Positions 3,445-13,562 of a stretch of DNA of 39,334 nt are shown here, one piece after another (positions within the stretch are counted from its first letter, which is position 1; the number at the start of each line of letters is the position of its first letter). The notes beneath the pieces are model-generated. The model was not told the DNA's origin. It did no database searches and saw nothing but the letters and a program-made list of their open reading frames with translations. The position numbers and the translations under genes were made by a program. The stretch is from Sulfurospirillum sp. (lineage in GTDB: Bacteria > Campylobacterota > Campylobacteria > Campylobacterales > Sulfurospirillaceae): NCBI GenBank assembly GCA_016735235.1, contig JAERRW010000004.1, forward strand, positions 1-39,334, written 5' to 3'.

Positions 3445-5994
3445 ATGGACATAAGAGCAGAATTTTTAAACTATTTTAAACAAAAAGGGCATGCATTAGA
3501 GCCTAGTGTCCCGCTTGTTGTTAATGATTCTACTTTGCTTTTTGTAAATGCTGGAATGGTGCCTTTTAAAAGTGTATTTACAGGGGAAATTCCAAGACCA
3601 AATCCACCAAGAGTTGCTAGTTGTCAAACTTGCATAAGAGCTGGAGGCAAACACAATGACCTAGATAATGTAGGCTATACTGCTCGTCATCATACATTTT
3701 TTGAGATGCTTGGCAATTTCTCTTTTGGTGACTACTTTAAAGAAGATGCAATAGCTCATGCCTGGGAATTTGTAACAGAAGTTTTAAAACTTCCTAAAGA
3801 GAAACTCTGGGTTACAATACACACTAGTGATGATGAGGCAGAAAAACTTTGGCAAAAACATATTCCGTTGAGTAAAATTAAACGCTTTGGAGACGCTGAT
3901 AACTTCTGGCAGATGGGAGATACTGGACCTTGTGGACCTTGTAGCGAGATATTTATAGACCAAGGTAGCGAACATTTTAATAGCGATGAAGATTATTTAG
4001 GTGGCGATGGCGATAGGTTTTTAGAGATATGGAATTTAGTTTTTATGCAGTATGAGAGAGATAAAAATGGAAATTTAGAGCCTCTTCCAAGACCCTCAAT
4101 CGATACGGGCATGGGGCTTGAGAGAGTTATTGCAGTTAAAGAGGGAAAATTAAGTAATTATGATTCCAGTGAGTTTATGCCACTTATTGCAAAAGTTGCA
4201 GAGATTTGTAATAAGAGTTATAAATATGAAACTGGAGCAAGCTATAGAGTTATTGCCGATCATATGCGTTCAACCTCTTTTTTACTAGCACAAGGAGTCA
4301 ATTTTTCAAATGAGGGTCGTGGTTATGTCTTAAGACGGATTACTCGTCGTGCCATTCGTCATGGGTATCTTCTTGGGATTCGTAAACCTTTTATGTATAA
4401 ACTATTAGATGTTATAAACTCTTTATTGGGTAAACAGTATCCATATTTGATAGAGAAAAAAGATCTATTAAAAGAGCAAATTAGGCTTGAAGAAGAGAGA
4501 TTTTTAGTAACTATCTCTTCTGGAATTGAAATATTTGAAAATGAATTGAAAAATACAAAAGATATTTTTAGTGGCAATGTAGCATTTAAACTTTATGATA
4601 CTTGTGGTTTTCCTCTTGATTTAACACAAGACATGTTAAGAGATAAAGGTTTAAAAATAGATATTAGTAAATATAATAAACTCATGGAAGCTCAGCGTAA
4701 CCGTTCAAAGTCTTCTTGGAGAGGTAGCGGAGACAAAGTTATAAGTGGAGATTTCAAAACAATACTAGAGAGAGTTGGGCAAAATGATTTTGTAGGATAT
4801 TCAAGAAATATAAATTCAAAAGCAAAAGTTCTTGCACTTTTAGATGATAATTTTAAAGAGGTTAAAGTTCTTGAAAAAAGTGGTTGGATAATGCTAGATA
4901 AGACGCCATTTTATGCACAAAGTGGTGGACAATGTGGAGACAAGGGAGAGATAGTTAATTTTGGAAAAGTAACTGATACGCAAAAATTTTTTGAATTAAA
5001 TTTTTCAAAAATAGAACTCAAGAGTCTCTTACATGTAGATGAAAAAGTAAATGTAAAAGTAGATATTTCAAGAAATGAGATAGCAAAACATCATTCTGCA
5101 ACTCATTTACTTCATAGTGCATTAAAAACTATTTTGGGCAAACATATCGCACAAGCTGGTAGTTTAGTAGAGAAAAGTAGATTAAGATTTGATTTCTCTC
5201 ATACAAAAGCCATGAGTGCTGAAGAGATAATAAGCGTAGAAGATTTTGTAAATGACATAGTAGCAACAAGCAGAAATAGCGTAACAAAAGTTATGAGTAT
5301 TGATGATGCTAAAAAAAGTGGAGCCATGGCTTTGTTTGGAGAAAAATACGGCGATAAAGTTAGAGTAGTTACTCTTGGAAACAAGAGTAAAGAACTTTGC
5401 GGTGGAACACATGTTGAAAATGTGGGAGAAATTGGAAGTTTCATCATCTCTAAAGAGAGTGGAGTTAGTGCGGGCGTGAGAAGAATAGAGGCTATTTGTG
5501 GAGCTAGCTCTTTGGAGTACACAAAAACACTTAGAGATAATCTAAATCAAATAAAAGAGATAGTAAAACACAAAGATGCAATTATTGGAGTTGAAAAAAT
5601 AAAAAATGAGATTCAAACTCTCAAAAACGAAGTTAAGTATCTTGAAGAAAATATTAACAAACAAGTTAGAAGTGAGACTGTAAATGGTGTAGAACTTGTC
5701 GTAGATGTGTTGAGTGCTGGGGATGTAAAAAAAACGATAGATGATTATAAAAATAAAAAACAAAGTATTGCTATACTTCTTTTGCAAGTAAAAAACAGTA
5801 AAGTATCAATAGTCGCTGGAGTTAAAAATGCACCACTAAAAGCAGATGAATGGATAAAGAAAGTTGCTCCAATAATTGGTGGCAGTGGTGGAGGAAGATC
5901 AGACTTTGCACAAGCTGGTGGAACTAATGTTAGTAGAGTTGATGACGCTAAAAAAGTAGCTTTAAAATTTGCTAAAAATATTTTAGAGAGTTAA
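3445..5994 (+). CDS. alaS: Alanyl-tRNA synthetase
   Basis: An 849-residue class II synthetase that charges tRNA-Ala. The order is catalytic core (1-240; motif 2 region [20 protein letters not shown], motif 3 DTGMGLERV), tRNA-recognition domain (240-450), editing domain with zinc ligands H550 and H554 (HHSATHLLH) and C652 and H656 (ELCGGTH), a coiled coil around 700-730, and the C-terminal glycine-rich C-Ala domain ending near [15 protein letters not shown]. Length is normal for the family. The ATG at 3445 gives the expected [11 protein letters not shown] start. A candidate -10 box lies at 3425-3430. It is followed closely by a bioF-like gene on the same strand. All key motifs are present. Confidence 0.97.
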
Positions 5995-6018
5995 TGTTTA
6001 TGATAAACCAAGATTAAC

Positions 6019-7101
6019 ATGTATAGTAATGAGTTAAACGCTATTAAAAAATCAAATATATTTCGTCAAAAAGTTCTTTATGATGAGAGTTTATTAGATT
6101 TAGCATCAAATGATTATTTAGGTTTATCAAGTAAATTTGCACTTTTAACTCGTGCTGTTTCACGTTTAAAAATGTTTAAAAGTCATGCACCAAAAGCTTC
6201 ACAACTTGTGAATGGTTACCATCAAATACATAAAGATTTTGAAGAGTTTTTATGTAGACATAATGGATTTGAAGATGCAATATTAGCTGGAAGTGGTTTT
6301 CTGGCAAATTTAGCTCTCATAGAAGCACTTCCAAGAAAAGGGGATATTCTTATATTAGATGAGAAATACCATGCTAGCGGAATTTTAGCTGGAAAATTGG
6401 TTAGTGCTAAAGTAGTTACATTTGAACACAATAATCCAGAAAAACTTGAAGAAATTTTAAAAAATAGTACTTATAAAAAAGCTATTATAGCAGTTGAGGG
6501 CATCTATTCTATGAGTGGTAATTTATTGAAAAAAGAGATATTTGAAGTTGTAGAGAAATATAAAAATACACTTTTAATAGTAGATGAGGCTCACAGTAGC
6601 GGAGTAGTTGGAGAGAATTTTTTAGGAGTATTTGAACTTTTTAATATTAAACCACAATTAAATCATATAAAGATGGGAACACTTGGAAAAGCTTATGGAA
6701 GTTATGGTGCATATATTTTGTCTTCAAAACATATAATAGAATTTTTACAAAACAGAGCAAAATCTTTAATCTATACTACTGCACCATCATTAATAGATAT
6801 TGAATTAGCTCATCAAGGCATGCTTTTTATCATGAAAAATAAAAAAACTTTACATGCAAAAATAAAAAAACGTCAAGAATTGGTTAAAATGTGTTTTGGA
6901 ATAGACATGTTGGGATTAATTTTTACCTATGAAATGAATAGTTCTACTGAAGTTTTAAATATGCAAAATGAATTAAAAAAAAGAGGTTTTTTAGTTGGAG
7001 CTATTCGTCCTCCGACAGTTGAAAAACCAATGCTAAGAGTAATACCCAGAGTTAATGTACCGTTGAAAGATTTAAAAAGGTTATTTTATGTTTACATGTA
7101 A
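6019..7101 (+). CDS. bioF: 8-amino-7-oxononanoate synthase-like PLP enzyme
   Basis: A 360-residue fold-type I PLP enzyme of the alpha-oxoamine synthase family. Visible marks are LASNDYLGLSS (28-38), the substrate loop SQLVNGYHQIHKDFE (61-75), the PLP-ring Asp and His in VDEAHSSG (D189, H192), and the Schiff-base lysine K224 in GTLGKAYGSYG. BioF condenses pimeloyl-thioester with L-alanine in biotin synthesis; a close relative acting on another acyl-thioester cannot be excluded. The ATG lies inside an ACATGT word. The 3' end overlaps the ABC ATPase gene by 14 bases. A biotin ligase (birA) lies about 10 kb away, but no other biotin genes are in the window. Confidence 0.85.
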   Translation: MYSNELNAIKKSNIFRQKVLYDESLLDLASNDYLGLSSKFALLTRAVSRLKMFKSHAPKASQLVNGYHQIHKDFEEFLCRHNGFEDAILAGSGFLANLALIEALPRKGDILILDEKYHASGILAGKLVSAKVVTFEHNNPEKLEEILKNSTYKKAIIAVEGIYSMSGNLLKKEIFEVVEKYKNTLLIVDEAHSSGVVGENFLGVFELFNIKPQLNHIKMGTLGKAYGSYGAYILSSKHIIEFLQNRAKSLIYTTAPSLIDIELAHQGMLFIMKNKKTLHAKIKKRQELVKMCFGIDMLGLIFTYEMNSSTEVLNMQNELKKRGFLVGAIRPPTVEKPMLRVIPRVNVPLKDLKRLFYVYM

Positions 7102-12039: not shown

Positions 12040-12441
12040 TTAACAATTAATATTAGACCGTTTAATTATACTCCAGACATTAGAATTTATCTCTTCTAAT
12101 TTAACATTAAGTGCCATATCTTGATCGCTATATTCATAATCAGCCCAAACTCGTAAATTTTGTAATTTAATAAAAACTTGATAAAGTTTTTTATCTCTAC
12201 ATTTTTCGATTTTACTTTTAATTGCACCATGTTTACCGCTACCAGTTTTTGAACTCAATTCATCATCATGAGCTAAATATTTATGATATAAAGCATAATA
12301 GTATTTCTGAAATATTACTCTTCTAAAAAGAGAATCATCTTTTAAAGATGTTAAATTTCCTTTTATTGTAGTTTCTTTTGATACTAATTCATAAGCAAAT
12401 TCATTAAACTTTTTTGCTAAGCATAAATGTTTTTCACTCAT
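12040..12441 (-). CDS. HEPN-like domain protein (putative)
   Basis: A 133-residue, all-helical protein with the layout of HEPN-like families: a long helix FRRVIFQKYYYALYHKYLA (about 40-58), a GSGKHGAIKSKI turn, and LQNLRVWADYEYS near 95-108. The R-x-x-A-D-Y ending after a long helix pair is common in uncharacterised HEPN proteins; some members are ribonucleases, others only bind nucleotides. The canonical catalytic R-x4-6-H is not obvious, so activity is uncertain. It lies four bases after the stop of the preceding small exported protein, with a weak ribosome site, so translation is probably coupled. The family call is by pattern only. Confidence 0.5.
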   Translation of the reverse strand: MSEKHLCLAKKFNEFAYELVSKETTIKGNLTSLKDDSLFRRVIFQKYYYALYHKYLAHDDELSSKTGSGKHGAIKSKIEKCRDKKLYQVFIKLQNLRVWADYEYSDQDMALNVKLEEINSNVWSIIKRSNINC

Positions 12442-12445
12442 ATAG

Positions 12446-12871
12446 TTACATTAAAGCAATCATATCAAATAATTGACTTTGCTTTATGTTATCCTCAACG
12501 GTTAAAAATAAATCCAATTCTAAATCATCATATTGTAATTTTAAATAATCTTGATTTTCTAGTGAAATAAATAAACATAGTTTATCTAAATAGCCCTCTG
12601 CTGGTATCCATGTGTTATATACTTTAGTGTTATATTTTTCTTCTATCTTATTCAATATATTTGAAATTTCTACCTGTTTAATCATCTCTATATCATTTTT
12701 TAATGTAGAATCATGCGATGTTGAATTCTTATATGATGAGTAATCAACATAACTATCATATGACGCTTTATTGGAAAGTGCAATATCTTTTTTAGGAATA
12801 TCATTAGCTAGCAACCCAGAGGTAAGAGCCATACTCACTAAACATGAACTCACAAATCTATTATATTCCAT
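12446..12871 (-). CDS. Small exported protein of unknown function in the TIGR04255-like operon
   Basis: A 141-residue protein. The N-terminus (MEYNR, then hydrophobic FVSSCLVSMALTSGLLA, then ND) looks like a cleavable signal peptide. A serine- and tyrosine-rich linker (about 30-60) follows, and the C-terminal half (65-141) is an acidic alpha/beta segment: IEEKYNTKVYNTW, then LDKLCLFISLENQD, then ELDLFLTVED. An upstream ATG at 12889 is possible, but the chosen start has GAGGAAA upstream and does not overlap the preceding gene. I do not recognise the family. It lies between the TIGR04255-like and HEPN-like genes in one operon. Confidence 0.6.
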   Translation of the reverse strand: MEYNRFVSSCLVSMALTSGLLANDIPKKDIALSNKASYDSYVDYSSYKNSTSHDSTLKNDIEMIKQVEISNILNKIEEKYNTKVYNTWIPAEGYLDKLCLFISLENQDYLKLQYDDLELDLFLTVEDNIKQSQLFDMIALM

Positions 12872-12875
12872 ATTT

Positions 12876-13562
12876 TTAAATTTCCTCATCGCTAACTACT
12901 TCTTTGAATTCATCTCTATTTGCAGTATTAAGTCTATCAATTTGTTTAAATATATCTTTATGCTCATCATTTTTGATCGTATAATCTTCAACAGAAGTTA
13001 CAATATCAATAATTGAACCTTTATTGTTAGAATTTTGATATTTTTCATTATTAGCTACAATTTTATTGTATTGTATTTTACCAGATGAACCTTCTACTCT
13101 TAAAAATATTTTCTTATTGTTAGTGCTAATATCATTAATATTTATTTTTATTTTTCCTGTTTCGAAAATATTTTTATTTTCTATAAAATCAATATATCTT
13201 AATCCCATTCTAGTAATTCTAGTAATTTTTTTACTCTCGAAAATTTGTATAAATAATTTTTTTAATTGAGGAAAAAATGAATCTGTCCAGCTTGTATATG
13301 GACTATTCATTACTATACCAATTACATTATCACCAAGCATTACCTTATAGTTACTATTTTTAGATGATGTAATTTCATACAATGGTTCCATTTTTAAATT
13401 TGGGTCATTTTTTCTTATTGAATCAGGTATTTGACATAACGGCAACTTAGTAATTTGTTCAAATTCATCAACTTGCCCAATTATTGCAATATAATTCTCC
13501 GCTACACTACTAGATTCGAAGTGTATATTAAATATACATTCAACAACGGTATTATTTGACAT
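12876..13562 (-). CDS. TIGR04255-family protein
   Basis: A 228-residue cytosolic protein whose pattern matches the sporadically distributed TIGR04255 family: an opening VVECIFNIHF strand, LPLCQIPDSIRKNDPNLKMEPLYEI near 39-63, the VMLGDNVIGIVMNSPYTSWTDSF segment, and ITRMGLRYIDFIE near 120. The family has no established biochemical role that I know of. It is the first gene of a three-gene operon with a small exported protein and a HEPN-like protein. A ribosome site (AAGGAAAG) precedes the ATG, and a perfect 10-base inverted repeat lies just upstream (13578-13625). The acidic tail ends VVSDEEI. Confidence 0.75.
   Translation of the reverse strand: MSNNTVVECIFNIHFESSSVAENYIAIIGQVDEFEQITKLPLCQIPDSIRKNDPNLKMEPLYEITSSKNSNYKVMLGDNVIGIVMNSPYTSWTDSFFPQLKKLFIQIFESKKITRITRMGLRYIDFIENKNIFETGKIKININDISTNNKKIFLRVEGSSGKIQYNKIVANNEKYQNSNNKGSIIDIVTSVEDYTIKNDEHKDIFKQIDRLNTANRDEFKEVVSDEEI

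Follow-up and report, generated by a model that had tools for sequence, protein, structure and literature searches.

Not all members of the HEPN superfamily carry the canonical RX4-6H motif. The HEPN protein of the type IX retron retron-Kva2 is one that does without it; H64 and R122 acting across the dimer, together with Y40-42, are needed for defence, and the protein degrades tRNA (PMC13405049, a 2026 preprint). A different arrangement is known from the toxin–antitoxin–chaperone system CmdTAC, in which the toxin and the antitoxin have a stabilising chaperone as their third component. The chaperone senses infection, and when it is lost the antitoxin is lost too and the toxin is set free (PMC11618068). 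We have analyzed a three-gene locus of a Sulfurospirillum species which shares features with both systems. The locus lies in a stretch of 39,334 nucleotides (contig JAERRW010000004.1), called the window below. In the literature searched, with subscription papers and supplements lying outside it, no paper mentions the families TIGR04255, phrog_5464 or phrog_4575, which are the relevant ones here, and none links the accessions of the Escherichia coli proteins discussed below with prophages; a description under another name is possible. It is possible, too, that the E. coli cassette has been described earlier in the survey of prophage defence in E. coli by Brenes and Laub (2025; cited in PMC13092281).

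The three genes occupy positions 12040-13562 and are co-oriented and nearly abutting in the order TIGR04255 gene, middle gene, HEPN gene (Table 1), just as the preliminary description had it when proposing a three-gene operon. Four bases separate the stop codon of the TIGR04255 gene from the ATG of the middle gene, and again four bases lie between the stop codon of the middle gene and the ATG of the HEPN gene. An alternative in-frame ATG at 12889 would extend the middle protein from 141 to 147 residues; the putative ribosome-binding site listed in Table 1 stands ahead of the start of the 141-residue form. With a GC content of 25.0 % the islet is AT-richer than the whole window (30.6 %). Its flanking genes, which we named by reading the sequence, are presumably a YbgC-type thioesterase and PutA. 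A promoter scan returned sites no more numerous than in shuffled sequence. In the comparison with a Sulfurospirillum MAG (L009) the identities are 71 % for the TIGR04255 protein, 65 % for the middle protein and 68 % for the HEPN protein. The corresponding values are 0.17, 0.22 and 0.21 for dN and 0.64, 1.01 and 0.65 for dS, and since dN/dS is thus near 0.27, 0.21 and 0.32, respectively, we conclude that all three genes are under purifying selection and hence real.

Table 1. Features of the three-gene locus (positions in the window)
Feature	Position	Strand	Basis or remark
TIGR04255 family protein, 228 aa	12876..13562	-	Constant gene of the cassette; NCBIfam match
Middle protein, 141 aa	12446..12871	-	ORF; proposed adaptor or antitoxin
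HEPN protein, 133 aa	12040..12441	-	Proposed RNase effector; predicted fold, profile matches
AGGA, likely ribosome-binding site of the middle gene	12883-12886	-	Inside the end of the TIGR04255 gene; read from sequence
Hydrophobic segment at the N-terminus of the middle protein (residues 7-21, VSSCLVSMALTSGLL)	12809..12853	-	Kyte-Doolittle
C-terminal domain of the middle protein, specific to HEPN-type cassettes	12446..12691	-	Identity between window and L009; alignment of seven cassettes
Y47-Y49, putative equivalent of substrate-positioning Y40-Y42 of retron-Kva2 HEPN	12295..12303	-	Profile alignment
H71, putative equivalent of catalytic H64 of retron-Kva2 HEPN	12229..12231	-	Alignment, spacing, invariance
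R97 in the LRxxADY motif, putative counterpart of the catalytic R122 in retron-Kva2 HEPN	12151..12153	-	Invariance; alignment to 9xbd

The preliminary description had left it to a neighbourhood analysis whether these genes travel together. They do, as the trio recurs in other Campylobacterota, and the survey revealed in addition that the TIGR04255 gene is constant and the third gene variable. All 13 TIGR04255 loci found in our searches of Campylobacterota genomes show the order TIGR04255 gene, middle gene, third gene. The third gene encodes a HEPN protein in the window and, in the same order, in L009 (JALSME010000105), L010 (JAKITC010000014), L003 (G020), L012 (G233), L068 (G188) and L082 (G404); L011 and L018 are also of this type. 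When 298 Campylobacterota genomes were searched with a profile of the HEPN subfamily of the window, five matches were obtained. In four cases (own genome, G020, G233, G188) a TIGR04255 gene and a middle gene immediately precede the match, and the fifth match (E 8e-4) lies within a 382-residue frame and belongs to no cassette. A second type of third gene, related to phrog_4575, is present in L004, in the phages VW-6S and Dobby and in a Phocaeicola plasmid, and apparently in a divergent form in L084. The third protein of L013 and L015 has conserved H and C motifs and is, judged by eye, presumably similar to a permuted papain-type peptidase. A fourth kind is shared by L014 and L002, the latter being a second TIGR04255 locus in the genome from which the window stems, and a fifth kind is found in L019, a Campylobacter phage.

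A scan of viral contigs (IMG/VR) with the phrog_4575 protein gave 44 loci, 43 of them with the TIGR04255 gene and a middle gene upstream; the remaining contig starts inside the third gene. Only this type of third gene yielded loci on viral contigs: no relatives were detected when the scan was run with profiles of the window subgroup (HEPN, TIGR04255), with individual HEPN relatives or with the TIGR04255 protein of the peptidase type, and tblastn of the HEPN protein against plasmids and phages gave no match.

The TIGR04255 tree (37 rows) supports an exchange of the third gene, whose type appears to change more often than single origins would need. The HEPN type requires four changes on the tree, at least two of them forced by well supported branches, and the phrog_4575 type requires five, at least three of them forced in this way; the number of swaps is uncertain, as cassettes of one type partly group together and some branches of the tree are long. 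The most direct case is given by L068, L082 and L019, whose TIGR04255 proteins are closely related and yet the third gene of L019 is a different one. The cassettes of L082 and L019 both adjoin a DNA/RNA non-specific endonuclease gene. The second cassette of the window's own genome (L002, G000:C53:83-1827, minus strand) has a different middle protein and a different third protein of 127 residues. Within its middle protein a WDGY domain gives a match (E 1.3e-8) to the C-terminal part of PADLOC PDC-M32A; for most cassette parts no PADLOC model matched.

The third protein had been described as HEPN-like, and the structural prediction bears this out. Its AlphaFold2 model (pLDDT 86.5) is all-helical and is predicted to form the four-to-five-helix bundle of HEPN proteins rather than another fold. 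HEPN proteins are also the best matches of the model in the PDB (Foldseek; 2hsb with prob 0.99 and TM 0.53-0.56, MntA-HepT 7bxo with TM 0.54), and the structural matches include the HEPN toxins 8yuf, 8xdj and 7bxo. No Foldseek match reaches E 0.001; the E-values are weak (0.2 at best), partly because helical bundles match easily. Profile searches point in the same direction: the PADLOC model HEPN_IX is the best library match (E 4e-4), and the family profile finds the HEPN protein 9xbd at E 0.0099 and the retron-Kva2 HEPN protein at E 0.13. The canonical RX4-6H motif is absent and the sequence at this place reads LRVWADYEY; among the relatives only L009 has an H at X5 of the motif. In the profile alignment with the retron-Kva2 HEPN protein (E 0.13) Y47-49 and H71 align with Y40-42 and H64, the spacing from YYY to H being 22 residues in both proteins. 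Y48, Y49, H71 and R97 are invariant in nine relatives. R97 is aligned to the LRN of 9xbd; its match with R122 is inferred, because the Kva2 alignment ends before R122. As the conserved residues resemble those of Kva2, an active RNase is likely, and we regard the assignment of the third protein as a HEPN RNase effector as reasonably probable.

The family assignment of the first protein was likewise correct. It scores 73.6 bits with the NCBIfam model TIGR04255 (curated cut-off 30 bits; residues 1-226 on positions 2-246 of 252), which NCBI names 'sporadTIGR04255' for sporadic, and it matches phrog_5464 at E 9e-19; no PADLOC model matched it. The AlphaFold2 model (pLDDT 91.6, pTM 0.89) consists of a repeated beta-alpha-beta(3)-alpha unit that is predicted to form a saddle like that of TBP. 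In the Foldseek comparison with the PDB TBP comes first with a weak match (E 4e-3, prob 0.91, TM 0.30), followed by helix-grip proteins, which are weak matches as well; among viral models there is a good match to one unnamed protein of 202 residues. According to the model the protein is best described as TBP-like in its topology, without any functional implication. A SecB fold, which was considered too, gained no support, SecB being absent from the 50 best PDB matches, and the idea of a chaperone therefore rests on logic and not on the fold. That the TIGR04255 protein acts as a sensor or chaperone-like partner is a tentative proposal, to which we give rather less than even chances.

A middle protein recurs in every cassette of comparable layout. 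The preliminary description called that of the window exported, which is its weakest point; in favour of it there is a short, moderately hydrophobic N-terminal segment (Kyte-Doolittle mean 1.70 over 15 residues), and what speaks against export is a nearly uncharged n-region, with a net charge of 0 ahead of the segment, and the missing or doubtful segment in a few cassettes. The 15-residue stretch of highest hydrophobicity is N-terminal in 28 of 33 middle proteins (mean 1.46 compared with 0.82 elsewhere). The net charge before it is mostly 0 or +1 and AxA sites are few; the hydrophobic N-terminus is weak or absent in L012, L018, L013, L015 and L019. Window and L009 share 37 % identity over the first 28 residues and 75 % over the C-terminal part, a pattern which suggests that at the N-terminus the property is kept while the letters drift. 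This N-terminus may be a true signal peptide, an anchor in the membrane or a handle for a chaperone or for degradation. A linker rich in S, T and N and containing repeats lies after the hydrophobic segment. In two Campylobacter middle proteins (L082:1010-1495 and L068:1031-1474) the linker carries 12-residue tandem repeats like ILLQKTNTMENY in differing copy number, and its length in proteins of this kind may change by slippage.

The C-terminal domain, which was aligned over seven HEPN-type cassettes, behaves differently. For the last 55 residues of the middle proteins likeness is strong among cassettes with one type of third gene (z 73.6) and lacking when the types differ (z 0.7), from which we conclude that this part goes with the third protein, as would be expected of an adaptor or antitoxin. 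Between third-gene types the N-terminal 32 residues have no more than a faint likeness (z 3.2). The helix–strand pattern of the C-terminal domain had raised the idea of an MNT antitoxin fold; hhalign against seven MNT relatives from neighbouring genomes gave probabilities of at most 0.5 %, and this candidate was discarded. Profile searches of the PDB and Pfam with the domain returned nothing significant. The remote-homology search advocated earlier was thus fruitful for the 133-residue protein, where it led to HEPN, and yielded no Pfam, PDB or MNT relation for the 141-residue protein. We put the chances that the middle protein is an adaptor or antitoxin at about one in two.

The hydrophobic end also invites another explanation, namely a membrane-stationed sensor or superinfection-exclusion device. 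The middle protein would be inserted into the inner membrane or carried across it by means of its N-terminal segment, detect an entering phage or damage to the envelope and alert the effector by way of its C-terminal domain, and the TIGR04255 protein would be a cytoplasmic partner that docks or matures it. The retention of the segment in 28 of the 33 proteins despite sequence drift fits this, as do the repeat-containing S/T/N-rich linker and the fact that superinfection-exclusion genes often occupy just such prophage positions. The scarcity of basic residues before the segment and of clear AxA sites and the members devoid of a segment argue to the contrary, and full export would be at odds with a C-terminal domain matched to a presumably cytoplasmic HEPN RNase. 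We therefore consider this explanation unlikely, though it is the strongest competitor of a phage-defence module with a HEPN RNase effector.

Several neighbourhoods of the cassettes are those of mobile elements. In three genomes of the window's genus (G036, G037, G038) the thioesterase gene and its far-side neighbour are conserved, and the place of the trio is taken by a gene that, named by eye, is presumably Ogt-like. G020 has its trio at a distance of 2.5 kb from the thioesterase gene that also flanks the window cassette, so that this region may be an insertion hotspot. The HEPN-type cassette of G020 (L109:11548-13511, G020:C20) adjoins a PIN-domain gene, possibly that of a VapC toxin. In L010 only 46 bases separate the trio from a phage integrase gene. 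In E. coli 92 of 5426 genomes carry a phrog_4575-type cassette, with the proteins WP_000907077, WP_125282403 and WP_000069422; in the one genome inspected, NZ_CP028578 (L071:6001-7728), it is located in a lambdoid prophage between the antiterminator Q and holin genes on the opposite strand. RefSeq names there only a TIGR04255 family protein and hypothetical proteins. In Pseudomonas phage VW-6S the cassette follows just after the CI repressor gene. The GenBank 'XerC integrase' of this phage (L016:5893-6033) covers the 3′ part of the middle gene (ORF 5716-6033) and looks mis-annotated, because this 141-base gene is the end of a 105-residue middle protein. In the P2-like phage Dobby, whose record is circular, the cassette lies between its integrase end and the portal gene. 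Further TIGR04255 cassettes are found in Sulfurimonas phage SNW-1 and, beside an endonuclease gene, in a Campylobacter phage and prophage. In G201 (L106:8655-13487, G201:C1) the genes for the HaeII methylase, the HaeII endonuclease and Vsr are directly upstream of a cassette whose third protein is of the peptidase-like type with H and C motifs, and an integrase gene follows about 3 kb downstream. The gene L054:2288-2821, upstream of a phrog_4575-type cassette, resembles, as far as we can judge by eye, Panacea/GepA (DUF4065). Sites of this kind in prophages and islands hold accessory conflict genes (prophage 'morons', defence islands).

The position beside repressor, Q/holin or integrase genes in several phages would also suit a set for prophage fitness or lysogeny control that is unconcerned with other phages and serves induction timing, host physiology or counter-defence. 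However, cassettes occur outside prophages as well (the chromosomal islet of the window, a plasmid, the site beside the restriction–modification system), and the exchange of effector types is typical of conflict systems, which makes such a role quite improbable. Still less probable is a plain two-gene toxin–antitoxin pair of middle and HEPN protein that is kept by addiction, with the TIGR04255 protein as a hitchhiking regulator: HEPN toxins are common, and the G020 cassette has its PIN-domain neighbour, but the invariant part across the cassette types is TIGR04255 and not the pair, and neither an MNT nor another known HEPN antitoxin fold was found in the middle protein. That unrelated genes lie together by chance, for which nothing but the small number of close relatives could be adduced, is refuted by the neighbourhood survey with the same order in distant genomes and phages and by the purifying selection on all three genes, and we dismiss it.

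Since the set is widespread among bacteria and travels on prophages and genomic islands with an exchangeable effector, we are probably dealing with an uncharacterised phage-defence or toxin–antitoxin-like system. The toxin–antitoxin or defence role proposed earlier gains support by context (prophages, integrases, a restriction–modification system, exchangeable third genes). That the cassette is a conflict or defence module of some sort seems to us probable. The more specific reading as a mobile, three-component phage-defence module of the abortive-infection, toxin–antitoxin-like kind with a HEPN RNase effector is our preferred one, and we would give it an even chance. A wider reading, for which we see a chance somewhat below even, would make the cassettes an unrecognised, broadly distributed modular anti-phage class with a TBP-like sensor, an adaptor and effectors of four or more unrelated types, a class which temperate phages carry to protect their lysogens; the adaptor would have a hydrophobic N-terminus and a C-terminal domain swapped together with the effector.

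For a phage-defence module with a HEPN effector we infer the following interactions, trigger and activity. The TIGR04255 protein would be the constant regulatory part, holding the middle protein and sensing infection. The middle protein would be a bipartite adaptor or antitoxin, whose hydrophobic N-terminus is engaged by the TIGR04255 protein, by the membrane or by both and whose class-specific C-terminal domain holds the third protein inactive. The third protein would be the exchangeable effector, in the HEPN case an RNase with an active site formed from H71 and R97 across the dimer and with Y47-Y49 placing the RNA. Infection may then disturb the complex of TIGR04255 and middle protein, the middle protein would be lost or rearranged, and the freed HEPN dimer would cut RNA, tRNA being the likeliest target, so that growth stops.

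If this is true, the TIGR04255 gene is the hallmark of a modular defence system which E. coli, Pseudomonas, Bacteroidales and Campylobacterota carry in prophages and islands, and a route to the discovery of effectors is opened, any gene in third place behind TIGR04255 being a candidate toxin. There is also a concrete prediction, a non-canonical HEPN active site (H71, R97, Y47-49), and a question arises about the way in which a HEPN protein is kept under control by a TBP-like protein and by an adaptor whose end is hydrophobic.

Of the known systems, the PADLOC candidate PDC-M32 resembles the cassettes in one part, the likeness of the L002 middle protein to the C-terminal part of PDC-M32A; the three proteins of the window do not match it, and neither does the TIGR04255 protein of L002 match PDC-M32A. 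With HEPN-MNT (HepT-MntA) the cassette shares a small HEPN protein encoded beside a small partner. It differs in that no MNT nucleotidyltransferase was found in the middle protein (hhalign, Pfam), that the RX4HXY motif is lacking and that a third, constant gene is present. The likeness to the type IX retron is confined to the HEPN protein: both proteins dispense with RX4-6H, and in the weak profile alignment YYY and H fall on each other at identical spacing, with a conserved R downstream as a putative counterpart of R122; the lengths differ (133 residues here, 174 in retron-Kva2). Of the genes of a type IX retron operon, which comprises an ncRNA as well, neither the reverse transcriptase gene nor the winged-helix gene is present in the window cassette or its neighbours, the other TIGR04255 cassettes examined have none either, and the regulators of the cassette are the TIGR04255 and middle proteins. 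The toxin–antitoxin–chaperone systems differ from the cassette in three respects. TIGR04255 is modelled as a duplicated TBP-like saddle, with SecB not among the best Foldseek matches, the middle protein has its hydrophobic part at the N-terminus and not in a C-terminal chaperone-addiction domain, and the gene order is regulator, middle protein, effector. What CmdTAC and HigBA-SecB have in common with the cassette is the set of three genes for a toxin, a small antitoxin-like protein and a third partner. The antitoxin of such systems, like the middle protein, has a part that may need a partner; such systems are known in anti-phage defence, and their toxins vary.
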